From: Candidatus Desulfofervidaceae bacterium
GTDB taxonomy: Bacteria > Desulfobacterota > Desulfofervidia > Desulfofervidales > Desulfofervidaceae
Assembly: GCA_027038965.1 (NCBI GenBank)
Contig: JALWFG010000014.1
Location: 1-64,000, forward strand
DNA length: 64,000 nucleotides
Reading direction: 5' to 3'
Positions 1-18,023 of this stretch are shown here, piece by piece; the stretch's first letter is position 1; every line of letters starts with the position of its first letter. A model generated the notes under the pieces. It was not told the origin of the DNA, ran no database searches, and worked only from the letters and a program-made list of their open reading frames with translations. The translations under genes and the position numbers were made by a program.

Positions 1-44
1 ATAAAAAGTACTATTATTAATTCTACTAATGCAAAGCCCCTCAC
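1..44 (-). CDS. Type II secretion minor pseudopilin (GspH/GspI type), N-terminal fragment
   Basis: Only the first codons are inside the window. A GTG start at 44-42 overlaps the gspG stop (GTGA), and the translation begins [14 protein letters not shown]. That matches a class III prepilin signal: a short basic leader, G before F as the cleavage site, glutamate at +5 of the mature protein and a hydrophobic helix. The position directly after gspG and the 4-base overlap fit gspH in a gsp operon. Which minor pseudopilin it is cannot be told from 14 residues. Confidence 0.6.
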
Positions 45-472
45 TGTAATTCCCAGCTCTTTATATCGGCATTTACTCCTTCTCCTCCTTCTTTACCGTC
101 TGCACCAAGACATATAATTTCATAGGGTCTGTTGTTGTCTCCAGGAGAACGATATATATATGGATTTCCCCAAGGATCATTTGGTACCTTGTGAGTGTCT
201 AAATAGCCTCCTGGTTTGTAATTCCTGGGAATTGGAGGAATTGTAGGTTTTTCTATCAATGCCTTTATACCCTGCATTGTGGTAGGATACATACCATTGT
301 CCATTTTATACATTTTAAGGGCTGTTTCCATTGCTTTAATATCGTTTTTTGCCTTTACAACCCGTGCCTCATCAGGCTTTTCCATAATTTTAGGCACTAA
401 AAATGACGCCAAAATTCCCAATATAACTATAACAACTAAAAGCTCTATTAAAGTAAACCCCTTATTATTCAT
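41..472 (-). CDS. gspG: Type II secretion major pseudopilin GspG
   Basis: 143 residues, the usual size for GspG. The N-terminus has the prepilin signal ([20 protein letters not shown]): peptidase cleavage after G5, Glu at mature position 5, then a long hydrophobic helix. The C-terminal half has the features of the major pseudopilin, including the DPWGNPY segment and an acidic, glycine-rich calcium-binding loop near the end ([10 protein letters not shown]). After processing by GspO it would assemble into the periplasmic pseudopilus that pushes folded exoproteins through the GspD secretin. Start ATG at 472 has a GGAG Shine-Dalgarno. It is translationally coupled to the next pseudopilin. Confidence 0.92.
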
Positions 473-1065
473 TTAAATTTGCTCCTATTATTTTTTATTC
501 CTATTTAAAGTAAAATGGGGCAAAAATCAAGACATGAGAAAATCTTATAAAATATCTACATAGCTTTCAATAGCCCATAACAAGTTCTAAAAAAACTAAA
601 TGTAGGTTCTAGGTGTTAGGTTATAGCTTTTGAAATTTATTTAGGGGGTGGTGATTAGCCTAACACCCAAAAACCAAAATTTAATACCTAAAAGCTAATG
701 TCTCATATATAACCCTGTCCTCACTCATATTTTTTATATCTCTGCAGGAACCTGCCATCGCAAGTTATCTTTTGTTTTTTTATTTTTTACAATGAATTAA
801 AGATGGCTTGCAATCCATCTTGCAATGGTTTAAAAAATGAGAAAAATATTGACAATAATATTGAAATAGGGTTAAAAATCTACAATTTTTTTTCTATTAA
901 CAATTAATACTAGGCTTTAGGCTTTCATCCTAGTCAGGGGAATCTCGTGACTTTATCGCACAAAGGCTAGGTCGTCTTCAGTGCCCCCCAAGAAAGAAAT
1001 GATTTTTCGTCAATTTTAAAGGGGGGTATATCACAAAAAAGCATAGGAGATAAACCATCTCTAAA
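473..1065. other. 593-base intergenic region with dyads and a structured-looking leader
   Basis: No convincing gene is seen. It holds interleaved inverted repeats (GGTGTTAGG near 610 with CCTAACACC near 660; AGCTTTT near 624 with AAAAGCT near 690). A weak sigma70-like pair is at 849-854 (TTGACA) and 872-877 (TTAAAA). A compact stretch at about 910-1025 can fold: ACTAGG and CCTAGT form one stem, and GGGG near 939 may pair with the C-run near 994. That stretch could be the 5' leader of the CPBP protease gene at 1066. It was compared by eye with c-di-GMP, TPP and fluoride riboswitches and matches none. Confidence 0.35.
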
Positions 1066-1512
1066 TTGCTTGCGTTTATTGTAGATTTTTTTAAATTCAC
1101 AGGTCTAAATTCCAATCTAAAATGGGCTAAAGATCCTTTCTTTTATATGACCTTATTTCTTTCACTTCCAGTGAAAATGATTATAGTGTTGTTAAATCCC
1201 TTTTCAAGACCTTTTTCTTTTTTATTTTTAATATATTTATTAATTCCTGCATTTTCAGAAGAACTGTTCTTTAGAGGACTTTTAATACCTATATTTTCTG
1301 CATCTCTAAAAGGTAAAATCTGGTTTATAAGCTATTCTAATATCGTTGTTTCAATTATATTCTCAATAAGCCATATTTTTACTCATAATATCTTCTGGTC
1401 AACTTTGGTGTTTTTCCCTTCTTTAGTCTATGGATATTTTAGAGAAAAACATAACAATATCTTTCCATCTATTGTGCTTCATTTTATTTACAACTTTATT
1501 TACTTTTATTGA
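1066..1512 (+). CDS. CPBP-family glutamic intramembrane protease (possible sorting protease)
   Basis: 148 residues, largely hydrophobic, with the CPBP/Abi signature: a glutamate pair followed by arginine (SEELFFRG, about residues 63-70), a helix with a conserved histidine (FSISHIFTH) and a C-terminal HFIYN segment. Family knowledge: these are membrane proteases of the CAAX-prenyl-endopeptidase superfamily, and some bacterial members (myxosortases and MrtJ/MrtS-like proteins) cut C-terminal sorting tails containing an invariant Cys. A small protein with just such a tail lies convergently 52 bases downstream. The start is a TTG with an AGGAGA 16 bases upstream, so it is uncertain. The short N-terminus may be incomplete. 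Confidence 0.75.
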   Translation: MLAFIVDFFKFTGLNSNLKWAKDPFFYMTLFLSLPVKMIIVLLNPFSRPFSFLFLIYLLIPAFSEELFFRGLLIPIFSASLKGKIWFISYSNIVVSIIFSISHIFTHNIFWSTLVFFPSLVYGYFREKHNNIFPSIVLHFIYNFIYFY

Positions 1513-1525
1513 TTGACACACAGAA

Positions 1526-1555
1526 GAAAAAAGAAAGGGCGGAAAGATCCACCCT
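1526..1555 (-). terminator. Intrinsic terminator of the small tail protein gene
   Basis: On the minus strand AGGGTGGA and TCCGCCCT form an 8-bp stem (one mismatch) around a 4-base loop, followed by TTCTTTTTTC. It lies just after the stop at 1564 and between the two convergent genes. Confidence 0.65.
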
Positions 1556-1563
1556 CTAAGATA

Positions 1564-1770
1564 TTATCTGTTCCTTATGGGTCTTTTTCTTATTATTCCA
1601 AATCCAATTATTGCCAAAAAGAGTAGGATTAAATCGCCACGGGGAGAGTCAGACATATTGCAACCCCCGCCACTACTGCTGATACCATTATTGCTGCTAG
1701 ATGTAGAGGTCTGCTTTGTGGCAACCCCTATACCTTTGTCCTTTTCTATCTTTAATTTTATCATTCCCAT
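1564..1770 (-). CDS. Small protein with a Cys-containing C-terminal sorting-like tail
   Basis: 68 residues. The N-terminal 20 are lysine-rich. A Ser/Asn-rich linker follows, then GGGCNMSD, a hydrophobic helix (LILLFLAIIGFGII) and a basic end (RKRPIRNR). Low-complexity linker, Gly-Gly-Gly-Cys, transmembrane helix and basic cap is the architecture of the MYXO-, JDVT- and Synerg-CTERM class of signals, which are processed by CPBP-family proteases. An in-frame TGA stands nine bases before the ATG, so the frame does not extend upstream, and no N-terminal signal peptide is visible. It may be a true mini-substrate or the surviving 3' end of a larger surface protein. AAGGTGA precedes the start. Confidence 0.5.
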   Translation of the reverse strand: MGMIKLKIEKDKGIGVATKQTSTSSSNNGISSSGGGCNMSDSPRGDLILLFLAIIGFGIIRKRPIRNR

Positions 1771-2004
1771 AGCAAGTCACCTTTTTGGTTGTTTTTATTG
1801 TTGTTTCTTTCTTAGTATTTTACAATACCTTAAAGGAGACTTGCAACTTCTATTGCAAAATTAAAGGGATGTTAACTTCCTTGAAGAACTTATACTGCAA
1901 CAATTTTAGGTGCGTTTGCCCTTCTATTACAGAATTAAGGTTGATTTTCATTGTATTCTAGATTAAAATAACTTCTCTGTTACTTTAAATGGACGAGGGG
2001 TGTT

Positions 2005-2241
2005 ATGGAAAGATTGAAGCAATTGGCCATTAGTGAAGAAGGTTTTATCTTTGATCCTGTCACAGGAAACAGTTTTACCACAAATGGGACAGGTCTTTTT
2101 ATTTTGGAGGCCCTTAAAGAAGGGAGGGAAGAAAAAGAGATTGTGGACCTGCTGACCGAGAAGTATGGGACAGATAAAGAGAATGTCAGTCGGGATCTTA
2201 TGGATTTTATGGAACAATTGCGTTCTTATAGGTTAATTTAG
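2005..2241 (+). CDS. PqqD-like peptide-binding chaperone protein
   Basis: 78 residues with the PqqD winged-helix pattern: an N-terminal beta stretch (EEGFIFDPVTGNSF), TNGTGLFILEAL and a charged helix containing EKEIVDLLTEKYG, then VSRDLMDFMEQL. PqqD-type proteins bind leader peptides and present them to modifying enzymes. Here the partner would be the ATP-grasp protein that starts 13 bases later, since no radical SAM maturase is adjacent. It could instead carry or sense a small molecule. First gene of a tight six-gene cluster. Confidence 0.75.
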   Translation: MERLKQLAISEEGFIFDPVTGNSFTTNGTGLFILEALKEGREEKEIVDLLTEKYGTDKENVSRDLMDFMEQLRSYRLI

Positions 2242-2254
2242 GGAGCTTTAGAGA

Positions 2255-3292
2255 ATGGAAAGACTTTGCATAGGGGTTTCAGGAATCAATGCAGTGGATA
2301 ATCCAGGTCCGGGAATTGGGGTCATTAGGAGTTTGAAAGAAGACAAAGATTTGAAGATAGAGACCATTGGGTTGGCCTATGATGCTATGGAACCAGGGAT
2401 ATATATGGATTGGCTGGTGGATAAGTCCTTTGTTTTGCCTTATCCTTCCAGTTCCGAAGAAGAGTATATTAGACGTTTAATTTATTTAAAGGACAGAGTC
2501 GGTTTGGATATGATAATTCCTACCTTAGATGCTGAAATGCCCCTTTATATTAAAGCGGCATCTCTTTTAGAAGCTAAGGGGATTAAGACCTTTCTGCCAA
2601 CCAAGGAACAATTCGACTTTCGGGGAAAGACAAAATTATCACAGGTAGCTGAAAAAATTGGTCTTAAGATGCCTAAAACTAAAACAATTGCCTCTTATCA
2701 AGATTTGATGAAGGCCATTGAAGAGATTGGATTGCCAGTAATGGTTAAGGGGGTATTTTATAAGGCCTACCGAGCCTATACCTATCAGGAAGCAGTTGGA
2801 TATTACCGTCAGATTGTCGCTGAATGGGGATATCCAGTGGTTGTCCAAGAGGTAGTGACTGGGGAAGAGATGAATGTTATTGGAGTAGGGGATGGATTGG
2901 GAAATGACCTGGGACTTGTGGGCATAAAAAAGCTATGGATTACAAGTTTGGGAAAGATATGGACAGGGGTGACTGTTAAAAACGATGTTCTTTTAAAGGC
3001 GGCTAAGAAGTTTGTGCAAAAGTTTAATTGGAAAGGGGCCTTTGAATTGGAGTGTATTGTTTCGGCAGACGATGTCTATCTGATAGAGATTAATCCTCGT
3101 TTCCCAGCTTGGGTTTACTTTGCCACTGGGGTAGGGGTTAACTTGCCTGCCTTTATGGTAAAGACGGCTTTTGGTTTACCTTTGAAAAGTTCCAGGGATT
3201 ATTCAGCAGGAAAGCTTTATGTGCGCTATACCTACGATATAGTTACAGACATGTCTGTATTCCAGAATATTATTACCAAAGGAGAGCGCTAG
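2255..3292 (+). CDS. ATP-grasp ligase-like protein
   Basis: 345 residues. The N-terminal 100 form a pre-ATP-grasp-like region with a VSGIN start and an IIPTLDAEMPLY segment. An ATP-grasp fold follows, with PVMVKG (ATP-binding lysine) near residue 165, VVQEVVTGEEMNVIGV, and the Mg-binding ELECI...EINPR pair ending near residue 282. This resembles carbamoyl-phosphate-synthase/D-Ala-ligase-like enzymes that join a carboxylate to an amine with ATP. The substrate cannot be told. It lies one base before the decarboxylase gene, so the two products probably act on the same compound. Confidence 0.75.
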   Translation: MERLCIGVSGINAVDNPGPGIGVIRSLKEDKDLKIETIGLAYDAMEPGIYMDWLVDKSFVLPYPSSSEEEYIRRLIYLKDRVGLDMIIPTLDAEMPLYIKAASLLEAKGIKTFLPTKEQFDFRGKTKLSQVAEKIGLKMPKTKTIASYQDLMKAIEEIGLPVMVKGVFYKAYRAYTYQEAVGYYRQIVAEWGYPVVVQEVVTGEEMNVIGVGDGLGNDLGLVGIKKLWITSLGKIWTGVTVKNDVLLKAAKKFVQKFNWKGAFELECIVSADDVYLIEINPRFPAWVYFATGVGVNLPAFMVKTAFGLPLKSSRDYSAGKLYVRYTYDIVTDMSVFQNIITKGER

Positions 3293-3293
3293 G

Positions 3294-4652
3294 ATGGTTA
3301 AGAAAAAGTACGAAAAACCAGTGATAAAAAAGCTCCAAATGGGGTTTATGAATAAATTTGGCAGGGGCTATTTGAGCCACATTCGGCAGGCTATAGATGG
3401 AGTGTCTATTGATAAATTGGTAGAAATGTACGGTAGTCCTCAATTTGTATTTTCAGAAAAAAGGCTTAGGCAAAATTACAGGCGCCTTTATAATAGCTTT
3501 TCCAATCGATATCCCAACGTCCAGTTTGGCTGGTCTTACAAGACAAATTACCTCAATGCCATTTGTGCTATCTTGCATAAAGAAGGAGAGGTTGCAGAAG
3601 TGGTTTCTGAGTTTGAATATGAAAAGGCCAGAAATCTGGGTGTTCCTGGACATAAGATTATCTTTAATGGCCCTTTTAAGACCATATCTAGTTTAAAGAG
3701 GGCGCTCGAAGAAGGGGCCATTATTAATATAGATCATTTTGAAGAGATTCAAGATATAGAGCGACTGGCCCAAAGCCTAAATAAAAAAGTAAAGGTGGGT
3801 ATCCGAATAAATATGGATACAGGCATTGTTCCCCAGTGGTCTCGGTTTGGTTTCAATTTGGAAAGCGGACAAGCCTTAGATGCTGTAAAACGAATTGCCT
3901 ATGGAAAGCGCCTAGTCCTTAATGGTTTACACTGCCACATTGGCACCTTTATTTTGGAACCCAAGGCCTATTCATTAGAAATAGAAAAAATGGTCAATTT
4001 TGCTTATCAAATAGAGGACGATTTTGGATTCAAAATAGAATATCTGGATATCGGCGGGGGATTTCCCTCTAAAAATAGATTGAAGGGAATTTATTTACCA
4101 CCAGAGGTGATAATTCCCTCTGGAGAAGATTTTGCCGAAGCGATTTGTGATACCCTTTTAAGGTGTTTACGACCCAATGACTTTCCCAAGCTGATTTTAG
4201 AGACTGGCAGGGCCATCGTGGATGAGGCAGGTTATCTTATTACCACCGTTCATGCCATTAAAAGAATGCCCGATGGCTTAAGGGCCTATGTTGTAGATGC
4301 AGGGGTGAACCTCCTTTTTACCTCCTTTTGGTATAAATTTAATATTGAAATTGATAGGGAAGTTCAGGGTATTCCAGAACCAAGCATAATCTATGGGCCT
4401 TTATGTATGAACATTGATGTTGTTGAAGAATCTATCAATTTGCCACCCTTGCCCCGGGGCACAAGGCTGATTATTTCCCCTGTAGGGGCATATAACGTGA
4501 CTCAATGGATGCAATTCATAAACTATCGCCCTGCGGTGAGCCTAATTACCATCGAAGGGAAGATAGAACTTATTAGGGAACCAGAAACCTTAGACGATAT
4601 CCTTGGGAAAGAAAAGTTGCCTCAAAAACTCCAATTGAACCTTGAGGATTAG
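3294..4652 (+). CDS. PLP-dependent decarboxylase, alanine-racemase fold (DapDC/ODC family)
   Basis: 452 residues. The probable Schiff-base lysine is K83 in WSYKTN. Further family motifs are HCHIGT, a glycine-rich phosphate loop (YLDIGGGFPS), ETGRAIVDEAG and GPLCMN, whose Cys corresponds to the catalytic Cys of ornithine/diaminopimelate decarboxylases. An ordinary LysA is about 410-420 residues; this one has a basic N-terminal extension of about 40 and weak similarity in the specificity region (DAGVNLLFTSFWY). Its place between an ATP-grasp gene and a transporter argues against plain lysine synthesis and for decarboxylation of a special amino acid or conjugate. Confidence 0.8.
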   Translation: MVKKKYEKPVIKKLQMGFMNKFGRGYLSHIRQAIDGVSIDKLVEMYGSPQFVFSEKRLRQNYRRLYNSFSNRYPNVQFGWSYKTNYLNAICAILHKEGEVAEVVSEFEYEKARNLGVPGHKIIFNGPFKTISSLKRALEEGAIINIDHFEEIQDIERLAQSLNKKVKVGIRINMDTGIVPQWSRFGFNLESGQALDAVKRIAYGKRLVLNGLHCHIGTFILEPKAYSLEIEKMVNFAYQIEDDFGFKIEYLDIGGGFPSKNRLKGIYLPPEVIIPSGEDFAEAICDTLLRCLRPNDFPKLILETGRAIVDEAGYLITTVHAIKRMPDGLRAYVVDAGVNLLFTSFWYKFNIEIDREVQGIPEPSIIYGPLCMNIDVVEESINLPPLPRGTRLIISPVGAYNVTQWMQFINYRPAVSLITIEGKIELIREPETLDDILGKEKLPQKLQLNLED

Positions 4653-4659
4653 GATTTAG

Positions 4660-6732
4660 ATGCGGCCTAAATATTTAAAGGCAGTCCTCAATAGCTATGC
4701 AGAGATATTTTTCCTTCAGGGTTATCTGCCAGGCCTGGCATTTTTTCTTTGCACCTTTATTAATCCCAATATAGGAATTGCTGGTTTAATATGTGTATTG
4801 ACCGCTTACCTTTTTGCCCTTTTCCTAGGGATGAAAGACGATTTTTTGTCCTCAGGGTTTTACACTTATAATCCACTTTTGGTAGGGCTTTCTATTGGAT
4901 ATCTTTTTAAATTGGATTTCTTAACTGTCTTTTTTATTGCTACAGCAGGAATTTTGACATTTATAGTAACCTACAGTTTGGCAAACATATTCTCATATTA
5001 TTTTCACCTTCCAGTACTTAGTTTGCCATTTGTGATTGTGAGTTGCATTGCCTATCTGGCTGCAAGTCAATACAGTAATCTTTTTGTGAATGGCCTTTAT
5101 GTCCCGTCATTTTTTAATCTTTGGGAGAGTAAATTACCCCTTTGGTTTTTGGGATTGACGAAGTCATTAGGGGCGATTTTTTTCCTCCCTCACGTCTTTG
5201 CAGGTGTGATTTTGTTAGGGATTATTTTAGCAGTATCGCGCATTTTTTTCCTCTTGGCCATTGCAGGGTATTTCACAGGCACCTTAGTTGTTGGGTTGTT
5301 TACAGGTTCTTTAAGCCAATCCTTTCAAAGTCTTAATGCCTTTAACTTTATCCTTATTGCCATGGCCATTGGGGGCGTTTTCCTTATCCCAAGTCCCAAA
5401 AGTTATTTTTTGGCCCTTATTGCGGTTGTTACTTCTTCTCTTTTCTTAGAAGCCGTTAAAGGGATCTGGATGCAATACGGATTACCGGTGTTTACCTTAC
5501 CCTTCAATTTGATTACCATGGGATTTATATATGTTATGGGGATATTGGGTTATCCCTATCTTGCCAAGTTTTATAGAGGAACTCCTGAAAGGACCTTGGA
5601 TCATTATCTTACTTATAATTATCGTTTCCCAGGTAGTTCGAGGACCCTTTGTTTACCATTTTCAGGAGAATGGACAGTTTGGCAAGGAATAAAGGGTAGG
5701 TGGACCCATAAAGGGCCCTGGCAATATGCAATAGATTTTGTAATTACAGACGAACAGGGCAAAACCTTTGAAAACGAAGGTAAGGATTTAGAGCAGTACT
5801 ATTGCTTCCGAAAGCCAATATTAGCCCCTGTGAGAGGCCGAGTAGTTAAGGTGGTGAACGATATTCCCGATAACCCTGCGGGAGAAGTAAATAAAGAGCA
5901 TAATTGGGGCAATTTGGTTTTGCTATATGATGAAAGGGGCTTTTATGTCCTCCTTTGCCATTTGCTTCAAGGCTCAATTAAGGTAAAAGAAGGAGAATGG
6001 GTTGAGAGGGGAAAGCTTATTGGCCTTTGTGGAAATTCGGGCTATTCTCCTCAACCCCATCTCCATGTCCATGTGCAATTGACCCCAACGCTAGGGGTGC
6101 CTACCGTGCCCTTTAGTTTCATTCAATACATGAGTCCAGAAAAGGTTTATTTTGCCAATCAGCTACCCTTGGAAGGACAGCGGGTGATTGCCCTTTATCC
6201 TGACAAATCACTTGACATGAAAATGACATTTTTATTGGACGAGAAGATGGATTTTGTGGTATTAGTAAATAATGTTCCTAAAACAAATTTAGAAATGAAG
6301 ACAAAAATGGATAGTAATGGCGAATTCTATTTTGAAATCAATGAAAGCCGCCTTTATTTTGGCAAATGGGAAGGCACCTTTTACCTATACCGATTGGAAA
6401 ACAAGATTACCCCTGAGCTTAAGGCCTTGTTTACGGCCTTGCCCAGACTTCCTTTAGTATTTAAAGAAGGCTTACATTGGGAAGATTTTTTGCCCATTCA
6501 TGTGGTTTTAGGAGGGCTTAGAAAACACATGGTGTTGTTAGGAAGTTCCTTTTTTCCCTCAATGGCTAAGGTAAAAGGGGAATACCGATTTCTAAGTCCA
6601 GATGAAATCTCAGGAGAAATAAAGGAACTAAGTCTAAAAACTTATGTCAAATTGCACCCGATTAAAGGAATTGAAAGGGTAGAAGTGAATACAAAAGGAC
6701 AAAAAATAGTTTTAAGGAGGGAAGGGGTATGA
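4660..6732 (+). CDS. Urea-transporter-like membrane domain fused to an M23 (LytM) peptidase domain
   Basis: 690 residues. Residues 1 to about 310 are strongly hydrophobic with about ten membrane segments and urea-transporter landmarks (NPNIGIAGL, YNPLLVGLSIGYLF). A soluble region follows with an M23 core at about 365-500: AIDFVITD, PILAPVRGRVV, LLCHLL and the HLHVHV motif around residue 467. A C-terminal module of about 200 residues is unrecognised. M23 enzymes cut peptidoglycan cross-links in the periplasm. The usual first ligand pattern HxGxD is replaced here by WQYAID, so metal binding may be altered or the domain may be non-catalytic. The gene overlaps the next by four bases (ATGA). Confidence 0.8.
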   Translation: MRPKYLKAVLNSYAEIFFLQGYLPGLAFFLCTFINPNIGIAGLICVLTAYLFALFLGMKDDFLSSGFYTYNPLLVGLSIGYLFKLDFLTVFFIATAGILTFIVTYSLANIFSYYFHLPVLSLPFVIVSCIAYLAASQYSNLFVNGLYVPSFFNLWESKLPLWFLGLTKSLGAIFFLPHVFAGVILLGIILAVSRIFFLLAIAGYFTGTLVVGLFTGSLSQSFQSLNAFNFILIAMAIGGVFLIPSPKSYFLALIAVVTSSLFLEAVKGIWMQYGLPVFTLPFNLITMGFIYVMGILGYPYLAKFYRGTPERTLDHYLTYNYRFPGSSRTLCLPFSGEWTVWQGIKGRWTHKGPWQYAIDFVITDEQGKTFENEGKDLEQYYCFRKPILAPVRGRVVKVVNDIPDNPAGEVNKEHNWGNLVLLYDERGFYVLLCHLLQGSIKVKEGEWVERGKLIGLCGNSGYSPQPHLHVHVQLTPTLGVPTVPFSFIQYMSPEKVYFANQLPLEGQRVIALYPDKSLDMKMTFLLDEKMDFVVLVNNVPKTNLEMKTKMDSNGEFYFEINESRLYFGKWEGTFYLYRLENKITPELKALFTALPRLPLVFKEGLHWEDFLPIHVVLGGLRKHMVLLGSSFFPSMAKVKGEYRFLSPDEISGEIKELSLKTYVKLHPIKGIERVEVNTKGQKIVLRREGV

Positions 6733-7607
6733 GAAGGTTGTATTTAGTGACTATGGTATTGCTGCTTATTTTGTCAGGCGTGCAAGGGGTTCAGGCCGAA
6801 CAAAATCAATGGAAGGGGTATGCTAGTTTCCATGCTACGTATATCAATTTTTCAAATTCTCCTTTAAAGGATGATGGCTGGGTATTTACGGGATATGGAA
6901 GCTTGGGGGACGGTAAATATCATCTTCTAGAAGGAGCGATATCTCAAACCTATATTGATTATAAAGGGCGATCTGACTTAAATCAAACTGATTTTACAGT
7001 GGCCTATACCAATACCAACCAAATTTTACCCAACCATTCCTTTAGGTTTGGATTTCATTATATCCTTAGCGATGATGTGCTTACAGATAAAGGGAAGACA
7101 TTCTTTGGCAAGGTGACCTATTTTCGCCCTTATGACTGGAATGCTGGGCTGGAATTGGATTATTCATTATATGACAATCAATCTCCCAATCTAAATGTCT
7201 TTCAGATTTTGCCCCATGTTGGGGTTTATTTAAAGGGGTTGACCCCCAAGGGAAACCTTTATGCAGAAAGTAAATTTTACTATATCCACAAGGATAAGAA
7301 TCTGGATGGATTAAATAAAGACAACTTCTTTTCTTTTGAGCAGTCTCTTAGTTGGACCCTTAGCCCCTACGATGTGAAGCTTTCTGGCTGGGCAGGAGAA
7401 CAGATATTTGCTGTGAAGAATGGCGGATTTGTGGTCTACAACCTATCTGACAAATACAAAGGGGGCATTTCGTTGGAGATGGGATATACCCTTATAAACG
7501 GAGTTCGTATAGCCTTAAACCTAGATAATGAATGGTTAAAACACGTGGGCTATTCACAGACTGTAAGACAGAGCATATTCTATCTTAGCATAGGAACAAA
7601 ATTTTAG
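6729..7607 (+). CDS. Predicted outer-membrane beta-barrel protein
   Basis: 292 residues with a clear signal peptide (MRRLYLVTMVLLLILSGVQG, cleavage near QAE). The mature part consists of alternating aromatic/polar strands (ASFHATYINFS, HSFRFGFHYIL, AGLELDYSLYD, GGISLEMGYTL), and the chain ends LSIGTKF with a terminal Phe, the usual Bam-recognised end of barrels. No family was recognised. With the fusion protein upstream and the TPR protein downstream it would form the envelope part of the cluster. Confidence 0.6.
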   Translation: MRRLYLVTMVLLLILSGVQGVQAEQNQWKGYASFHATYINFSNSPLKDDGWVFTGYGSLGDGKYHLLEGAISQTYIDYKGRSDLNQTDFTVAYTNTNQILPNHSFRFGFHYILSDDVLTDKGKTFFGKVTYFRPYDWNAGLELDYSLYDNQSPNLNVFQILPHVGVYLKGLTPKGNLYAESKFYYIHKDKNLDGLNKDNFFSFEQSLSWTLSPYDVKLSGWAGEQIFAVKNGGFVVYNLSDKYKGGISLEMGYTLINGVRIALNLDNEWLKHVGYSQTVRQSIFYLSIGTKF

Positions 7608-7623
7608 ATTGAGGAGGTAAGCT

Positions 7624-8352
7624 ATGAGAAAACTTGTAATATGGGCAATATTGGTTCTATTTTTTCCTATTCAAGTGTATGGCCTGAACAATGAGCAAAT
7701 CAAAAAATCCTATTATCAATCCTATAATTACGAAAAGATGGGAAATTATAAGGATGCCATTAGGGCGCTTTCTCCGGTTTATAAGGCCTATCCTAAAGGA
7801 TATACGGTAAATCTGCGTTTGGGCTGGCTTTATTACCTTGATAAAAACTACGCCAATTCTATTGGTCATTACCAAACTGCTAGAAAGGTTGCTCCAGGGG
7901 CAATAGAGCCTCTTTTAGGAATGTCTTTGCCCCTCATGGTCCAGCAGAAGTGGACGAAGGTAGAGAAGTTGATGTATGAAGTTGTAAAAAAGGATTATTA
8001 TAACTATTATGGCAATCTTCGCCTCTCTATTGCCCTGCGGATGGAGAAAAAATACAACTTGGCAGAAAAGGTGATACGGAAGATGCTCAGTCTATATCCT
8101 ACAGATGTTAATTTTCTAGTAGAGTTGGGAATGATTTTAAAGGCTAAGGCGCAAACGAAGGAAGCGACAGCGGTCTTTACGAGTGTTTTGATTTTGGATC
8201 CCCAAAATATTGTTGCCAAAGAATATTTCCAGGAACAAATGAAGCTTAATAAGCAACTGCCTCTGAAAAATGGTGTGCCAACCAAAAAACATAAAGGATT
8301 TAGTATTTTTAATTTCTTTAAAGGAGGAAGTTATGGAGGCGTACACAGGTAA
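7624..8352 (+). CDS. Exported TPR-repeat protein
   Basis: 242 residues. A signal peptide (MRKLVIWAILVLFFPIQVYG) precedes at least four tetratricopeptide-like helix pairs (YEKMGNYKDAIRAL, YLDKNYANSIGHY, RMEKKYNLAEKVI, KAQTKEATAVFTS). The C-terminus is basic and short (KKHKGFSIFNFFKGG). Probably a periplasmic scaffold for the cluster. AGGAGG is well placed before the ATG. The 3' end overlaps the AOR start by 20 bases, which ties the AOR to this transcript. Confidence 0.65.
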   Translation: MRKLVIWAILVLFFPIQVYGLNNEQIKKSYYQSYNYEKMGNYKDAIRALSPVYKAYPKGYTVNLRLGWLYYLDKNYANSIGHYQTARKVAPGAIEPLLGMSLPLMVQQKWTKVEKLMYEVVKKDYYNYYGNLRLSIALRMEKKYNLAEKVIRKMLSLYPTDVNFLVELGMILKAKAQTKEATAVFTSVLILDPQNIVAKEYFQEQMKLNKQLPLKNGVPTKKHKGFSIFNFFKGGSYGGVHR

Positions 8353-10141
8353 TATTTTAAGGATAAATTTAACTGATAAAAGGGTTACTAAGGAGCCTTT
8401 AGATGTAGATGCTGCCAAGAAGTTCATTGGTGGCAGGGGTTTAGGCTCTTATTATTTGGCCAAGGAGATTGATCCTCGTGTAAAACCTCTTTCCCCAGAG
8501 AACAAATTGATTTTGGCTACAGGGCCTCTTACTGGTACCATTGCTCCTGCCAGTGGAAGATTTATGGTTATTACCAAATCGCCCTTGACAGAGGCGATTG
8601 CCTGTTCTAATGCAGGAGGATTTTGGGGGGCCGAGCTTAAATTTGCAGGCTATGATATGGTTATTATTGAGGGTAAGGCCGAAAAGCCGGTATATGTGTT
8701 TATAAGCGATGATCAAGTGGAGATTCGACCCGCAGATACCCATTGGGGAAGGCTTGTTTCAGAGACCACAGATGCCATTTTGGAGGAGATAGGAGAACCT
8801 GATGCCAAAGTGCTTACCATTGGACCGGCAGGAGAAAATTTATCCCCTATTGCTGCTGTTATGAATGATAGGTATCGGGCGGCGGGTAGGAGCGGCGTAG
8901 GGGCCGTTATGGGAAGCAAGAATTTGAAGGCGATTGTGATAAGGGGCAGTAAAAAGGTGAAAGTGGCGGATCCTGAAGGGATGAAGGGCTTTGTTAATAC
9001 GCTGCTTAAGGTAATTAGGGAAAATCCTGTCACTGGCCAGGGGTTGCCTCAATTGGGCACGGCCGTATTAGTGAATATAATTAACGAACATGGCATTTTA
9101 CCCACAAAAAATTTTCAGCTTTCTCAGTTTGAGGCCGCTAAAGACATTTCAGGTGAGGTGCTTACTCAAAGATATTTAGAAAAGAAAGACCCCTGTTATC
9201 GCTGCCCCATTGCCTGCGGGCGCTTTTGCCGTGTAGATGGAGAAAAGGGAGGGGGGCCTGAATATGAAACCATTTGGGCCCTAGGGGCGGACTGTGGAAT
9301 AGGTGATTTGGCTACTATCATTAAGGCCAATAACCTTTGCAATGAATATGGATTTGACACCATTTCTGCCGGAGCAACCATTGCTTGTGCCATGGAATTG
9401 GCAGAAAAGGGCTATATTAAAGAAGACGAACAAGAAGGCTTACCACTTAAATTTGGCTCATCTCAAGCTCTACTGGGTTGGCTTAAAAGGATGGGACGCA
9501 ATGAGGGCCTTGGAGCCAAAATGGCCCAAGGTTCTTACCGTTTGGCAGAGATGTATAATGCCAAGGAATTCTCCATGTCTGTCAAAAAACAGGAACTTCC
9601 TGCCTATGACCCTAGAGGGGCCCAGGGCCATGGCCTGGCCTATGCGACTTCCAATCGGGGCGGATGTCATGTTCGGGCCTATATGATAGCGCCTGAGGTG
9701 TTGGGTAGTCCAGAAAAGCTTGATCGTTTTTCTCTTGAAGGGAAGGCCAAATGGGTGAAAATGTTTCAGGACTTAACTGCGGCCATAGATGCCCTTGGGA
9801 TTTGTCTCTTTACCTCATTTGCTTTTAAACCTGAGGATTACACAACCCTTTTCAATTTGGCCGTAGGCGAAAATTGGACTCCTCAAGATTTATTTTTGGC
9901 CGGGGAACGGATTTGGAACCTAGAGCGGGTTTTCAATTTGAAGGCTGGTATTTCTCCCGAAGCAGATTCCTTGCCGAGGAGGCTTTTAGAGGAACCAATT
10001 GTTGAAGGGCCTTCAAAGGGATATGTTAACAGGTTGTCCGAGCTTTTGCCTAAATATTATCAAGAAAGAGGATGGGATGAGAAAGGAGTGCCCAGTAAGG
10101 AAAAGTTGAGCCTTTTAGGATTGGAAAATTTTTCCATATAA
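8333..10141 (+). CDS. Tungsten-dependent aldehyde:ferredoxin oxidoreductase (AOR family)
   Basis: 602 residues from the ATG at 8333, chosen because AAGGAGGAAG stands just before it and MEAYTGNILRINLT is the canonical AOR start; the frame is open to 8270. Pterin-binding motifs are GGRGLGSYYLAKE and AGRSGVGAVMGSKNLKAI. The 4Fe-4S ligands are CYRCPIACGRF plus a late Cys in DALGICLF. The family oxidises aldehydes to acids with ferredoxin, using a tungstopterin. The substrate is unknown. Its translation from inside the TPR gene suggests an aldehyde made or handled by the upstream cluster, but a general detoxifying role is as likely. Confidence 0.92.
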   Translation: MEAYTGNILRINLTDKRVTKEPLDVDAAKKFIGGRGLGSYYLAKEIDPRVKPLSPENKLILATGPLTGTIAPASGRFMVITKSPLTEAIACSNAGGFWGAELKFAGYDMVIIEGKAEKPVYVFISDDQVEIRPADTHWGRLVSETTDAILEEIGEPDAKVLTIGPAGENLSPIAAVMNDRYRAAGRSGVGAVMGSKNLKAIVIRGSKKVKVADPEGMKGFVNTLLKVIRENPVTGQGLPQLGTAVLVNIINEHGILPTKNFQLSQFEAAKDISGEVLTQRYLEKKDPCYRCPIACGRFCRVDGEKGGGPEYETIWALGADCGIGDLATIIKANNLCNEYGFDTISAGATIACAMELAEKGYIKEDEQEGLPLKFGSSQALLGWLKRMGRNEGLGAKMAQGSYRLAEMYNAKEFSMSVKKQELPAYDPRGAQGHGLAYATSNRGGCHVRAYMIAPEVLGSPEKLDRFSLEGKAKWVKMFQDLTAAIDALGICLFTSFAFKPEDYTTLFNLAVGENWTPQDLFLAGERIWNLERVFNLKAGISPEADSLPRRLLEEPIVEGPSKGYVNRLSELLPKYYQERGWDEKGVPSKEKLSLLGLENFSI

Positions 10142-10238
10142 GCATAATGGCAGTTGATGGTTAATTGGTTAAATAGCCCAGTAAGTGGGGGTGTGGTAGG
10201 ACTGAAATGAGTATATATTCAATTGTTAGGAGGTATAA

Positions 10239-11180
10239 ATGACAATTGCCTTTGTTTTCCCGGGACAGGGTTCCCAGTATGTAGGCATGGGTGAAGACTT
10301 GTGGGAGAAGTTCTCTGAAATAAGAGACATATTTGAGCTGGCCAGTGAGATTTGTGATAGGGATATGGCCAAGCTTTGTTTTGAGGGGCCAATGGAAGAG
10401 CTGACCCAGACAGTAAATTTACAACCGGCCTTAACAGCGGTAGATATTGCCGTTTTTACTTGTCTTAAAAACTATAAAATTTTACCTCAAGTGGTGGCGG
10501 GACACAGCCTGGGGGAATACCCAGCCCTTTATGCAGCAGGCATTTTGGGTCTGGAGGATACCTTTAAGGTGGTGAAAAAAAGGGCCGAGCTTATGCAAGA
10601 GGCGGCCGAGAAAAATCCCGGAGGAATGCTGGCCATTGTCAAGCTTGATATTGAACAGGTGAAAGAGATTCTCTCTGATTATCGAGAAGGAGAGGCCGAA
10701 CTGGCCAATTACAATTCTCCAGCCCAGATTGTCATTAGTGGCAAACCAGAGGTGTTGAATGAAATTGCTCAAAGGGTTAAAGAGAAAAAGGGGCGTGGCA
10801 TTCCTTTAAGGGTCAGCGGGGCCTGGCATAGCTCTTTTATTAGAGATGCCCAAGAAAAATTCAGAGAATTTTTAGAAGAGATTAAGTTCAATTCCCCCCA
10901 AAGGCAAGTGTTCTTTAATGTTACATCCCTGCCTGAAACTGATCCCCAACGAATTAAGGCCCTTATGTGGAAGCAACTTTGTGCTCCAGTGCTTTGGTGT
11001 GAAGAGGTTAAGAATATGCATGGAAAGGGAGTGAATGTTTTTGTAGAAGCAGGGCCCAAACAGGTGCTTAAAAATTTGATTGAGAAAACCTTACCAGAGA
11101 GCAGTTTTAAGGCCTTTGCTGTGGAAAAAGAGTTAGAAATAAAACGGTTAAGAGGAGGTGTGAAGGTAGAGCTACCTTGA
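10239..11180 (+). CDS. fabD: Malonyl-CoA:ACP transacylase FabD
   Basis: 313 residues, normal length. It starts AFVFPGQGSQYVGMG, carries the nucleophile motif GHSLGEYPAL with Ser near position 92, and has the catalytic His in SGAWHSSFI near residue 200. It loads malonyl groups onto acyl carrier protein for fatty acid synthesis in the cytoplasm. AGGAGG precedes the ATG. No other fab gene is adjacent. It starts a new plus-strand run after a 97-base gap. Confidence 0.95.
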   Translation: MTIAFVFPGQGSQYVGMGEDLWEKFSEIRDIFELASEICDRDMAKLCFEGPMEELTQTVNLQPALTAVDIAVFTCLKNYKILPQVVAGHSLGEYPALYAAGILGLEDTFKVVKKRAELMQEAAEKNPGGMLAIVKLDIEQVKEILSDYREGEAELANYNSPAQIVISGKPEVLNEIAQRVKEKKGRGIPLRVSGAWHSSFIRDAQEKFREFLEEIKFNSPQRQVFFNVTSLPETDPQRIKALMWKQLCAPVLWCEEVKNMHGKGVNVFVEAGPKQVLKNLIEKTLPESSFKAFAVEKELEIKRLRGGVKVELP

Positions 11181-11233
11181 CGCTTATGATATAATAGAAT
11201 TTGATTTCAAAAGGTAAATTTAAGGAGATGAAC

Positions 11234-11428
11234 ATGGTGGAGCAAGGTCAGGTTGAGGAAGAAGAGATTAAAAAGGCGCTTTTAGAAGCCTCTGAAAACG
11301 GTAGAATAAGGTGCCCGCAGTGTCTGGAGATTGCCCGAAGATTTCAGGTGAAAGGCACAGTGGTAGGGCGGCTTTGCAATGAGTTAAAATTAAAAATTTG
11401 CGGTTGTCAATTGGGGTGCTTTAAATGA
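11234..11428 (+). CDS. Small Cys-rich helical protein of unknown function
   Basis: 64 residues from the ATG at 11234, chosen for AAGGAG six bases upstream; the frame opens at 11201. It has an acidic N-terminus, a helix-turn-helix-like middle (ALLEASENGRIRCPQCLEIARRFQ, then KGTVVGRLCNELK) and Cys residues in CPQC, LC and CGCQLGC, enough for a metal site. Its stop overlaps the radical SAM start by four bases. A tight partner, perhaps DNA-binding or redox-sensing; no function is assigned. Confidence 0.6.
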   Translation: MVEQGQVEEEEIKKALLEASENGRIRCPQCLEIARRFQVKGTVVGRLCNELKLKICGCQLGCFK

Positions 11429-12366
11429 AGTATATCTTTGGACCGGTTCCTTCCAGACGTTTAGGGCTTTCATTGGGACTTGATTTAATCCCCTTTAAGA
11501 CCTGCAGTTACAATTGTGTTTACTGTGAGCTAGGTAGAACAACCCATTTAACCATTGAACGTAAGCCTTACGTAAAGGCCAAAGAGATTCTGGATGATTT
11601 AGAGGCATTTTTTGCGGATAAAACTCACCCCCCTGTTGATTACATTACCCTTGGAGGTTCGGGGGAGCCTACTTTGAATGCTGAGTTAGAAACCATTATC
11701 TTGGGGGCAAAGGCTCTTAAAAAGGCCCCAGTAGCCGTTTTAACAAATGCCTCTTTGATTTGGCAAATAGAGGTGCAAAGGGCCTTACTGGCCGCAGATG
11801 CGGTTTTGCCTTCGTTAGACGCCGTAACTGAAGGGATATGGAAAAAGGTAAATCGCCCCCATCCCTTACTGAAAATTCAGCAAATTGTTGAGGGTCTTAA
11901 GGACTTTAGACAGGCATATTCTGGGGAAATTTGGCTAGAGGTCCTTTTTGTAAAGGGAATTAATGATAGTAAAGAAGAAATTGAGCGCTTGAAGGCTGAG
12001 ATTGAAGAAATTAATCCTGAAAGAATTCAGATAAATACTGTAGTAAGGCCACCTGCCGAGAGTGGAATTGCCCCCCTGACTGAGAGCGAATTAAATGTAA
12101 TAAAGGGTATTTTGGGAGAAAAAGCCGAGATAATTGCCCATTTCAAGCGACATATAGACCAACAATCATCTTTAGAGCATCTTAAAGAGGACATTTTGGC
12201 CATGCTTAAACGCCGTCCCTGTACACTTCAAGACATAGCAGTGGCTTTGGGTGTCCATATGAACGGCGTAGTTAAAATGATAGACGAGCTTCAAAAACAG
12301 GGAGAAATTGATACCTATGAACATAGCGGAAAAAGATTTTTTGTGGTAAAATCTTTGTCAAGATGA
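11425..12366 (+). CDS. Radical SAM protein with C-terminal winged helix
   Basis: 313 residues. The N-terminus GPVPSRRLGLSLG is followed by the cluster motif TCSYNCVYCE (CxxxCxxC, residues about 28-36), and GGSGEPTLN binds SAM. This is the COG0731-like group of small radical SAM proteins. The last 75 residues form a winged helix (CTLQDIAVALGVHMNGVVKMID). The reaction is unknown. It is coupled by 4-base overlaps to the small Cys protein before it and to the activase-like protein after it, so the three are probably made together. Confidence 0.8.
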   Translation: MKYIFGPVPSRRLGLSLGLDLIPFKTCSYNCVYCELGRTTHLTIERKPYVKAKEILDDLEAFFADKTHPPVDYITLGGSGEPTLNAELETIILGAKALKKAPVAVLTNASLIWQIEVQRALLAADAVLPSLDAVTEGIWKKVNRPHPLLKIQQIVEGLKDFRQAYSGEIWLEVLFVKGINDSKEEIERLKAEIEEINPERIQINTVVRPPAESGIAPLTESELNVIKGILGEKAEIIAHFKRHIDQQSSLEHLKEDILAMLKRRPCTLQDIAVALGVHMNGVVKMIDELQKQGEIDTYEHSGKRFFVVKSLSR

Positions 12367-15300
12367 AACAACTTTTTCTAGGTATTGATGTAGGTTCCAC
12401 AAGTGCCTGCACGGTCATTCTGGATGAGAACGGTCAAATAGTTTATGAAGATTATCGCCGCACTTATGGCCAGCCTTTATCTACCGTAAGGGATATTTTG
12501 AAAGAAATTTCTTCTAGGTTCCCTTTAAACGAAGTTGTTTCCCTTTCCCTTACGGGCTCTGGTGGCAAGACTTTCTTGCCCCTTTTAGGGGGAGAGTTTA
12601 TCAATGAGATTATTGCTCATGCTCGGGCAGTGATGCATTATTATCCCCAGGTGCGGACTATTATTGAAATAGGGGGAGAAGACAGTAAACTTGTCTTTTT
12701 GGATACAGACAAAAAGGGTAGGCCAAGAATTGCTGATTTTGCCATGAATACCCTGTGTGCGGCTGGCACTGGGGCCTTTTTAGACCAGCAAGCCCACCGT
12801 TTAGGACTAAAAATTGAAGAATTTTCTACTCTTGCCCTTAAGGCCAAGCATATCCCTCGGATTGCCGGAAGATGTGCTGTTTTTGCTAAATCAGATATGA
12901 TTCATCTCCAACAAGAGGGTACGCCAATTGAAGAGATTGTAGCTGGCCTTTGTTATGCCTTGGCCCGTAACCTCCGCAGCAATATCGGCCGAGGAAAGCC
13001 ATTTCATAAGCCCATTGCCTTTCAAGGGGGAGTGGCCGCCAACTTGGGGATGCGACGGGCCTTTTGCGATATTTTTAAATTGAGGCCTGATGAGTTAATT
13101 ATCCCTGAACATTATTTTACTATGGGGGCCATTGGGGCTGCCTTGGATGCCATGCAGAGAGAAAGTAGAAATTATAAATTTCCTGGCCTTGAGCGCTTGG
13201 AAAAGGCGATATTGGGAGAAAAAGATGTCAAATGTTTTTACCCCCCATTAAAACTGATTAAATCCCAGATTAGAACTGGTTCTATAGTCCATTGTGGGGA
13301 CCGATCTAAAATAAAGGCTTATCTAGGCATAGATGTAGGTTCAGTGAGCACCAATTTGGTTTTACTTGATGAAGCAGGAAATCTTTTAGATAAACAATAC
13401 CTAATGACTGCAGGAGATCCCTTACAGGCCGTAAAAAAAGGGCTCGGAATACTAGGCAAAAGGTGGAAGGAGAAAGTAGAGGTTTTAGGAGTGGCTACAA
13501 CAGGGTCAGGTAGATTTTTGATAGGGGATTTTGTAGGAGCAGATTTGGTCAAAAACGAAATTACCGCCCAAGCCGCGGCCGCAGCGGCCATTGACCCTCA
13601 AGTGGATACCATCATTGAGATTGGTGGGCAGGATTCAAAGTTTATTCGTCTTGAAAGAGGGGCTATTGTTGATTTTCAAATGAATAAGGCCTGTGCGGCA
13701 GGGACTGGCTCATTTTTAGAAGAACAGGCCGATACCCTTGGGATTTCCATTTATGATGAATTTGCCAAACTTGCCCTTAAGGCCCGAACTCCAGCCCCTT
13801 TGGGGGAAAGGTGCACCGTGTTTATGAAATCGGATGTTGTTCACTTTCAACAGAAGGGATTGCCTAAAGAGGACCTGGTGGCTGGGCTTTGTTATGCCAT
13901 TGCCTATAATTTTTTAAACAAGGTAGTAGAAGGCAGACCCATTGGAGAACATATCTTTTTCCAAGGGGGGGTAGCTAGTAATAAGGGGGTTGTGGCTGCC
14001 TTTGAGCAAATTCTTAAAAAACCGGTTATAGTACCGCCCCATAATGAAGTTACTGGAGCCATTGGGGCCGCCCTTTTGGCCAAGAAAGAACGTAGTTGGT
14101 CACAAACAGGTTTTAAAGGCTTTGATTTGGCCCATGTAAAATATAAGGTGAGCAGTTTTATTTGTAAGGCCTGTCCTAATCAGTGTGAGATAAAAAAGGT
14201 GGTAATCGAAGGGAATAAGAACCCACTTTACTATGGTGGTAGGTGTGAAAAATATGAGTGGAAAAAACAGACTCAAAGACCGGCCCCTGATTTGGTGGCC
14301 GAGCGTGAAAGGCTGCTGTTTCATTTTGCTAATTTAGAGGAGACTCAGGGAAGAAGAGAGATTGCTATCCCCTTTTGCTTTTTTATAGAAGATTACCTGC
14401 CTTTTTTTGTTACCTTGCTCAAAGAATTGGGGTTCAAAGTAGTGGTGTCTTATCCTACTACTCAAAACACTATTCAAGAAGGAACTCAAGCGGTGCTTTC
14501 TGAAACTTGTTTCCCAGTTAAAGTGGCTCATGGACATATATCAACTCTCATTAAAGAAGGTCATAAAACCATTTTTTTACCAAATGTAATAGATTTACCT
14601 TCTTTTCACCCTGATTTTGGCTGGGGAATGGTTTGTCCTTATGTTCAAGGCCTGTCTTATATGTTGGAGGCGGCCTTTGATTTCAAGGCGAAGGGTATTA
14701 GTTTTTTGCATCCAGTTGTCCACTTAGGCCGCTCTGGCTGGTATTATGAGGAAAGCCTCCGTAACCTAAGTAAGACCTTAGGCGTCTCAAAAAAGAAGGT
14801 GGCTCGAGCTTGGCAGAAGGCAGAAGTAGTTCAAAAAAATTTTTATAAGGCCCTTAGAGAAAAGGGAAGGCATCTTTTGCAGGATTTGGGAAGGGACGAC
14901 CAGGTAGTAGTTATTGTGGGAAGGGCTTACAATGCCTTTGATAGTGGAGTGAACTTACGGATTCCTCAAAAGATTGCTCAACGAGGCAGAGCCGTTATCC
15001 CGCTTGATGCCTTGCCATTAGAAATGGCCGAGCTTTCTAAAGAAAGCCTGAACATGTACTGGCGTTATGGTCAGCATATCTTGGCCGCAGCAGCCCTTAT
15101 TCGGCAATTATCCAACCTCTATCCTATTTATATTACCAACTTTGCTTGTGGTCCTGATTCCTTCATCCAACACTTTTTTAAAGAAGAGTTGGGGGACAAG
15201 CCCTTTTTGGAAATAGAAATTGATGAACATAGCGCCGATGCTGGAATAGTTACTCGTCTTGAGGCCTTTTTGGACAGCATTAAGGGCAGAAAAAAGACAA

Positions 15301-16529: not shown

Positions 16530-16531
16530 CC

Positions 16532-17263
16532 ATGGATGATAATCCAGTAGTCTTTCTGATTCATTTTTTTAGGTCTTGCTGTCGCCGCCCCTTTTTCTTT
16601 TTTGAGTTTTTAAAACAGATATATATTATTGGGGCAGATGGACTCCCGCTTATTACCACGGCGGCAGCGGCTGTAGGGATGGTCCTTGCCTTTCAAACTG
16701 GCTCGACATTGGCCAAGTTTGGGGCTCAAAAATATCTAGCCGCCATTGTGGGACTTTCTATGGTTAGAGAGCTTGGCCCGGTCGTAACGGCCCTACTTGT
16801 AGCCAGTCGATCGGGTTCTGGAATTACGGCCGAGATTAGTTCGATGAAGGTCACTCAACAACTAGATGCCTTAAGGGTAAGTGCTATCTCTCCTTATAAT
16901 TACCTTGCAATTCCCCGTGTATTTGCTTGTGTCATTTGTTTGCCGCTGTTAACCGTAGTGGCCGACGTAGTGGGGATTATTTCAGGAGGGGCAGTCAGTG
17001 TTATAATGGGTTTAAGCACGGCTAGATGGTATGCCAAAATTACAGGAGAGTTTATAGAATTTGGTGATTTCTTTCCTGGATTGATTAAAGCGCTCTTTTT
17101 TGGATTAATTATTTCGTTTGTGGCCCTATATTTTGGTTTTAATGCCAAAAAAGGGACTCAAAGTGTGGGACAGGCAACGACCACGGCTGTAGTAACGGCC
17201 TCACTAGGAATCCTACTTTCTGATGTGATTTTGACCAAAATTTTACTGGCATTTTTTGGGTGA
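16532..17263 (+). CDS. mlaE: MlaE-type lipid ABC transporter permease
   Basis: 243 residues with five to six membrane helices. The MlaE signature is clear: GMVLAFQTG, the MVRELGPVVTALLVASRSGSGI stretch (split at 790-840 of the gene neighbourhood) and the EISSMKVTQQLDALRV loop that contacts the ATPase. It transports phospholipids across the inner membrane with the MlaF and MlaD homologues downstream. It begins two bases after the activase stop and overlaps or abuts the ATPase gene. Confidence 0.93.
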   Translation: MDDNPVVFLIHFFRSCCRRPFFFFEFLKQIYIIGADGLPLITTAAAAVGMVLAFQTGSTLAKFGAQKYLAAIVGLSMVRELGPVVTALLVASRSGSGITAEISSMKVTQQLDALRVSAISPYNYLAIPRVFACVICLPLLTVVADVVGIISGGAVSVIMGLSTARWYAKITGEFIEFGDFFPGLIKALFFGLIISFVALYFGFNAKKGTQSVGQATTTAVVTASLGILLSDVILTKILLAFFG

Positions 17264-17264
17264 T

Positions 17265-18020: not shown

Positions 18021-18023
18021 TTT

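Follow-up and report, generated by a model that had tools for sequence, protein, structure and literature searches.

A compact MrtJ-like glutamic protease convergent with a 68-residue protein carrying a JDVT-CTERM-like tail in a Candidatus Desulfofervidaceae genome

Introduction

At one end of a contig from a Candidatus Desulfofervidaceae bacterium, a small gene for a CPBP glutamic intramembrane protease faces a gene for a 68-residue protein whose C-terminus looks like a Cys-type sorting signal but which has no signal peptide. Membrane proteases of this kind trim surface proteins of bacteria and anchor them. To which sorting system do the two genes belong, and is so short a protein a working substrate or what is left of one? 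A preliminary description of this DNA proposed either a dedicated one-protease, one-substrate system or a protease next to the remnant of its substrate.

The experimental model for myxosortase is MrtX of Myxococcus. In the model laid out in PMC11980579, the substrate is exported through Sec, anchored by a helix, lipidated at a Cys, cut just after this Cys and transported to the surface by the type II secretion system (T2SS); Myxococcus xanthus has 35 MYXO-CTERM targets, every one with a signal peptide. The same paper predicts that myxosortase-type systems need a lipidating enzyme, not yet identified, and describes MrtJ with a single JDVT-CTERM protein as a conserved two-gene neighbourhood, sporadic in beta- and gamma-proteobacteria (PMC11980579). 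Our literature search found no paper joining any two of glutamic intramembrane protease, C-terminal sorting and Desulfobacterota.

Results

Architecture of the locus

The window, that is, the whole stretch of 64,000 nucleotides analysed, starts at the first base of contig C14 in a genome of 2.19 Mb and 21 contigs. The compact glutamic protease and the convergent 68-residue protein with a Cys-type tail and no signal peptide, both claimed in the preliminary description, were each found as frames in their places.

41-472 (−): T2SS pseudopilin gene gspG, a neighbour
771..825 (−): element A, second copy of element B, upstream of a 25-aa frame MAGSCRDIKNMSEDRVIYETLAFRY (758-681) and then of gspG
1066..1512 (+): compact CPBP glutamic intramembrane protease, MrtJ-like, 148 aa, TTG start
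1258..1275 (+): catalytic EExxxR motif EELFFR, residues 65-70, from the alignment of relatives
1534..1557 (−): terminator-like hairpin between the convergent protease and tail genes, the one site found
1564..1770 (−): 68-aa protein, ATG start, which ends in a sorting-like tail and lacks a signal peptide, from the JDVT-CTERM match and hydropathy
1567..1590 (−): basic C-terminus RKRPIRNR, residues 61-68, presumed cytoplasmic, from the sequence
1591..1635 (−): hydrophobic helix DLILLFLAIIGFGII, residues 46-60, a 15-residue stretch that averages 2.72 in hydropathy
1660..1671 (−): GGGC motif, residues 34-37, by codon pattern match; Cys37 is the presumed lipidation and cleavage site
1804..1858 (−): element B, leader/promoter-like, upstream of the tail gene; TTGCAA-N6-TTGCAA, with TAAAAT 18 nt past the second TTGCAA

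The stop codons of the two convergent genes are separated by 51 bases. Shuffled sequence averages 1.7 hairpins of the kind seen at 1534-1557, so this hairpin is weak and not significant by itself. An AAGGTGA ribosome site precedes the ATG of the tail gene. Codon usage does not show the coding status of either gene: the scores of the tail frame (0.043) and the protease (0.01) are both within the range of spurious frames (n=105, median −0.009, 95% at 0.125; for typical gene pieces, n=176, 5% at 0.136), and a 95-aa frame antisense to the tail frame scores 0.07. GC content is 0.264 for the protease, 0.402 for the tail gene and 0.408 for the window; the low value of the protease fits acquisition but also a Phe/Ile-rich membrane protein, and we claim no origin from it.

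The protease scores best against MrtJ

The protease exceeds the Pfam cut-off for PF02517 (59.4 bits; cut-off 22.4). Among the NCBIfam Mrt models, MrtJ (NF033192) is best with 68.2 bits and E 7.8e-19, or 69.3 bits in the genome search, both below the curated cut-off of 75; Mrt_core (60.4), MrtP (56.2), MrtS (55.2), MrtC (46.1), MrtX (28.8) and MrtZ (19.8) follow. In an alignment with 20 relatives, E65, E66, R70, H103 and H139 are invariant and N143 is present in at least 90%; with the EExxxR motif, H103 and the HxxxN motif of H139 and N143, the catalytic set is complete. An AlphaFold2 model of the protease has a pLDDT of 90.9. When Foldseek candidates were aligned to it with VIA-align, the Rce1 CAAX protease 4cad came first (Z 10.6, 137 residues aligned, rmsd 3.4 Å), and the runner-up chain reached Z 4.5. 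Foldseek by itself returned no PDB chain at E≤0.001, and Rce1 was missing from its output. Searched by profile, the solved sequences yielded a single chain, a photosynthetic reaction-centre subunit at E 0.025, which we rejected.

Besides this 148-aa protease, the genome holds one other PF02517 protein, which lies in a 498-aa frame. Searches of the five nearest genomes (G001-G005) did not find the 148-aa protease, and no relative of it was found in the viral contigs searched.

The 68-residue protein and its tail

The tail protein consists of a Lys-rich start, a Ser-rich linker, SSSGGGC, a hydrophobic stretch and an RKRPIRNR end. Its sole NCBIfam match at E≤10 is JDVT-CTERM (NF033191), with 20 bits and E 4.8e-4, short of the curated cut-off of 27 bits; the match covers residues 32-58 and profile positions 1-27 of 35. 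It has the anatomy of JDVT-CTERM, namely a Gly-rich motif with an invariant Cys, a hydrophobic helix and a basic C-terminal end, and in an alignment of 14 tails the G and C ahead of the helix are invariant. It does not have the Asp-Pro step after the Cys that is present in most of the over-cut-off JDVT tails read. The comparison of sorting models suggested in the preliminary description came out the same way: JDVT-CTERM fits the tail, and MYXO-CTERM (TIGR03901, at E≤10), Synerg-CTERM and the other sorting models in NCBIfam do not match it.

Residues 1-40 hold no hydrophobic segment that could form a signal peptide (best 12-residue mean 0.05). An in-frame stop lies three codons before the ATG, with only Leu-Ala in between, and when the three minus-strand frames of 1564-2010 were translated, neither a signal peptide nor a domain was seen upstream of the tail gene. 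On these grounds we rejected a recent frameshift in a longer gene; a deletion would be compatible with the same result. Outside its tail the protein has no family match, so nothing shows selection on its first 31 residues. Among the plasmids searched, nothing matched the 68-aa protein.

One tail was found in the genome

We searched the whole genome for further tails in three ways. The GGGC codon pattern occurs at 14 places, and only that of the tail gene ends its frame in a helix and a basic end. The JDVT profile matches four places at E≤10; the tail frame is the best of these (E 0.0016), and the other three, at E 0.38 or worse, are matched over the hydrophobic half only. A profile built from 14 tails, the tail protein itself included, returned the tail frame and one weak partial match (E 0.37). 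The search for more tail bearers, which the preliminary description had called for, thus found no second one by the GGGC pattern, the JDVT profile or the 14-tail profile; a tail in an assembly gap would escape. The tail pattern, which was fitted afterwards, has one match in the window and none in 3.84 Mb of simulated sequence. Because the best genome-wide JDVT match is the tail frame and the simulation gave no match to the fitted pattern, the tail match beside the MrtJ-like gene exceeds chance.

Relatives of the pair and the protease tree

In a phylum sample of 395 genomes, the MrtJ profile matches at 1e-12 or better in 20 (over cut-off in 2), and the JDVT profile at 0.01 or better in 11 (over cut-off in 1). 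Four genomes are in both lists: the query genome, G032, G101 and G209. The tail-bearing frame of G209, with 843 residues and a body ending in a choice-of-anchor U domain, runs directly into its protease gene, and in G101 about 2.3 kb lie between tail and protease. The protease gene of G255 faces a 427-aa frame that carries a JDVT-like tail (14 bits), and this convergent arrangement is that of the query locus. That G209, G101 and G255 in the phylum sample also have both halves suggests that there are MrtJ/JDVT pairs which the curated cut-offs miss. Scanning named genomes yielded 76 loci, 13 of which, with compact or near-compact proteases, were taken further; a JDVT match at 0.05 or better was present in 10 of the 13 genomes with such proteases, in 9 of them over cut-off.

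The protease tree (87 rows, 112 columns, many open forks) holds no curated Abi immunity proteins, and loci L053-L055, L057, L059, L062, L064-L066 and L142 were left out of it. The query protease joins those of G255 and a Desulfonatronum MAG with moderate, unstarred support of 86/85, and both of these partners have JDVT-like tails. A 26-row group (85/81) contains the query, all 20 rows labelled Mrt candidates and 5 others. The labelled rows L056, L058, L060 and L063 make a separate branch, and L056 scores higher with Mrt_core than with MrtJ.

Two further observations concern the breadth of the tail family. At L172 and L176 in G403, a Desulfonatronum MAG, trypsin-like (by reading of the sequence) and SGNH-hydrolase-like proteins with signal peptides carry JDVT-like tails of about 20 bits, under cut-off; some tails of this lineage thus seem to escape the JDVT model. 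Several genomes in the class of G400 (for example, G550) have 2 to 6 JDVT-CTERM matches; thus the one-target rule is not universal.

The size of JDVT-bearing proteins

We compared the tail protein with other JDVT bearers. In the genomes with compact or near-compact proteases, 14 JDVT frames exceed the cut-off, and they measure 190 to 1718 aa. Over the 369 genomes in the class of G400, 45 genomes have 77 JDVT matches, and the frame is shorter than 190 aa in only 5 of the 77; the longer frames are counted as they stand, complete or not. The five short frames are a 154-aa one masked inside, three of 152, 92 and 43 aa that run into a contig end (judged from coordinates for the 43-aa frame), and a 55-aa one, below cut-off, that holds a stop. 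A whole JDVT bearer of 68 aa is therefore exceptional within the sample examined.

Three complete JDVT-like proteins, two in G403 and one in G398, begin with a hydrophobic segment that scores 2.57 to 2.68. For 11 other uncut tail frames, the best segment in the first 60 codons ranges from −0.12 to 2.84 and exceeds 2 in 5; these frames run from stop to stop, and the low-scoring ones may start later.

Comparison with known systems

The closest likeness is to MrtJ/JDVT-CTERM (NF033192, NF033191). In both cases a compact CPBP protease lies next to a single tail bearer, the one target found in the genome and in the query one with a JDVT-like tail, and the tail has a Gly-rich linker, an invariant Cys, a helix and a basic end. 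In contrast to that system, the query pair is under both cut-offs and convergent, where G209 has a tandem arrangement, and its target has 68 aa and no signal peptide. With MrtX/MYXO-CTERM of Myxococcus xanthus, the pair shares an intramembrane glutamic protease and a substrate with an invariant Cys, a helix and a basic cytoplasmic end; cleavage after the Cys is the mechanism proposed there, and we take it over for the query pair as a proposal. However, the MrtX model gives only 28.8 bits on the query protease, and MYXO-CTERM does not match the query tail.

The Synerg-CTERM tail is of the Cys type. Synerg-CTERM/MrtS resembles the query pair in combining such a tail with a CPBP protease, and differs in that MrtS scores 55.2 against 68.2 for MrtJ on the query protease and Synerg-CTERM does not match the query tail. 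The Rce1 CAAX protease (MmRce1, 4cad) is alike in its fold, as predicted for the query (Z 10.6), and in its EExxxR and HxxxN motifs. It is unlike the query in size, as the 4cad chain has 253 residues and the compact query core only 148 aa, and in substrate, which for the query is presumably a helical sorting tail and not a prenylated CAAX box.

Discussion

Assignment of the pair and rival explanations

Each gene has as its best NCBIfam match the matching half of one system, and we therefore assign the two genes, with a probability of roughly 0.78, to a divergent pair of the MrtJ / JDVT-CTERM type, in which a myxosortase-group protease accompanies the only tail bearer found in the genome. This assignment is supported by the two frames, the intact catalytic motifs, the Rce1-type fold, the anatomy of the tail, the adjacency of the genes and the lack of a second tail in our searches, and further by the relatives that have both halves and by the place of the protease in the tree. 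Against it stand the two scores under cut-off, the missing Asp-Pro step, the want of an export signal and of any equally small complete JDVT bearer elsewhere, the first 31 residues without a family match, the codon usage of both genes and the moderate support in the tree. By curated thresholds, neither gene can be filed as MrtJ or JDVT-CTERM; in testable features, the pair resembles MrtJ/JDVT-CTERM in looks and arrangement, barring the curated scores and the signal peptide. That a JDVT bearer requires a signal peptide is itself probable by analogy with relatives and with MYXO-CTERM. The earlier view, in which the CPBP protease is myxosortase-like and its partner bears a C-terminal sorting tail of the Cys type, thus holds and has been narrowed by NCBIfam to MrtJ/JDVT-CTERM. 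As for a dedicated one-protease, one-substrate system, the family assignment and the single tail found in the genome support it, but the idea is not new, given the two-gene neighbourhoods described in PMC11980579. The preliminary description had held two outcomes against this proposal: a genome with no other tail bearer and a protease among bacteriocin-immunity Abi proteins. We found no other tail, but a single target is the described norm, and the protease was not placed among Abi proteins in a tree that holds no curated ones.

We weighed three other explanations. In one, a deletion removed the signal peptide and the body of what had been a longer, secreted JDVT-CTERM protein, so that the promoter, ATG and tail were left and the protease now has no working substrate. 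This explanation shares its family assignment with the MrtJ/JDVT-CTERM reading and differs from it only in present use, and we regard it as a sizeable possibility, though well short of an even chance. The large size of JDVT frames elsewhere (190-1718 aa, those below 190 aa among the 77 matches being cut, masked or broken) argues for it, as does the N-terminal hydrophobic segment in the three complete JDVT-like proteins of G403 (two) and G398. However, the reading frame is unbroken and comes with a convincing ribosome site, a promoter-like element and a terminator-like hairpin, none of the upstream frames holds debris of a signal peptide or domain, and the protease retains every catalytic residue even though no other tail was found in the genome.

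If the 68-aa frame were not a gene, the GGGC-helix-RKR run would have arisen by chance and the protease would act on something unrelated. The codon score of the tail frame (0.043), which is within spurious frames while the antisense 95-aa frame scores 0.07, and the JDVT score under cut-off speak for this, but we consider it improbable, for the best genome-wide match of the JDVT profile adjoins an MrtJ-like gene, the fitted tail pattern has no match in 3.84 Mb of simulated sequence and a ribosome site is in place. CPBP proteins beside bacteriocin genes are well known, and a small basic peptide beside a CPBP gene could likewise be a membrane-active, bacteriocin-like peptide from which the protease, as a CPBP (Abi) immunity protein, protects the producer. 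This is the least probable explanation, and a very unlikely one: the peptide's sole family match is a sorting tail, the best models of the protease are MrtJ and then Mrt_core, and the tree of 87 rows, with no curated immunity proteins, groups the protease with tail-associated compact proteases. Furthermore, no bacteriocin export gene was recognised among the annotated genes (window 41-472 and 1066-19085), where the sole gene for an ABC transporter (17256-18020) has MlaE and MlaD genes beside it.

A substrate without a body

What is unusual about the MrtJ/JDVT-CTERM-type pair is its substrate, which has 37 residues up to the Cys and neither a signal peptide nor a folded domain. We favour a reduced substrate that keeps the promoter, the ribosome site and the tail. 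Use and decay are about equally likely: given a real pair, a live mini-substrate falls slightly short of an even chance, and a reduced remnant of a longer secreted protein is a somewhat weaker possibility. Live use, as a lipopeptide of 37 residues, is favoured by the intact frame, the ribosome site, the promoter-like element and the intact protease. A remnant is favoured by the absence of an export signal and of a complete parallel elsewhere.

Action of the protease on the tail, membrane orientation, lipidation and cleavage are proposed here from relatives. By analogy with myxosortase, the tail helix would lie in the inner membrane with its basic end inside and Cys37 on the outer face, and an acyltransferase would lipidate Cys37. 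The protease may then cut just after Cys37, leaving a C-terminally lipidated product of 37 residues. As the substrate of 37 residues plus tail has no signal peptide, its N-terminus, if the protein is used, would have to cross the membrane without a cleaved Sec signal, which is a weak, conjectural step. Short N-out tails can cross in this manner. The complete proposal is tentative and rather unlikely: export of an N-tail that has no signal peptide, lipidation of its Cys and release of a short lipopeptide by the MrtJ-like protease, with a regulatory element common to the region upstream of gspG. If it is true, the system makes a secreted or surface lipopeptide rather than anchoring a surface protein. 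A 148-aa protease with a 68-aa substrate would in addition be a very small test bed for what such a protease needs, be it the Cys, its lipid, the helix or a body. The substrates seen in this analysis are mostly large.

Repeated elements upstream of the tail gene and gspG

Elements A and B form a 55-nt repeat with 71% likeness, and a promoter-like site at 1846-1817 lies in element B. The exact TTGCAA-N6-TTGCAA pair occurs genome-wide only at A and B; the other 13 sites in the genome, with one mismatch, show no likeness beyond the motif (best identity 0.49-0.56; 0.49-0.55 for random stretches). Aligned with gaps, the A and B regions reach a score of 77, which none of 200 shuffles equalled (maximum 68.5). 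Compared with shuffles, a leader hairpin over the ribosome site stands out in B (z −3.86) and less so in A (z −1.97). The two elements may act as a common operator or as a leader, or may derive from the duplication of a tail gene or gene start. In window 1-2400, Rfam gave 12 matches up to E 10, all under gathering scores, so this part of the window has no known riboswitch.

Surroundings of the pair

At 874-1090, a perfect 13-nt inverted repeat (AAAAATCTACAAT / ATTGTAGATTTTT) surrounds a CCCCCC/GGGGGG hairpin and reaches into the start of the protease; it could be a small mobile element, or chance.

On the other side, a PqqD-like gene at 2005, divergent from the tail gene, is followed consecutively by ATP-grasp, PLP decarboxylase and urea-transporter/M23 peptidase fusion genes (2005-6732), a row that is possibly a peptide- or metabolite-modification cluster. 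The PqqD and ATP-grasp genes are closely matched in G004 at locus L037 (ATP-grasp 73%), where the setting differs. By reading of the sequence, a tRNA-like stretch and an integrase-like frame lie upstream of them in place of the pair, and the gspG of G004 is among apparently ordinary T2SS genes.
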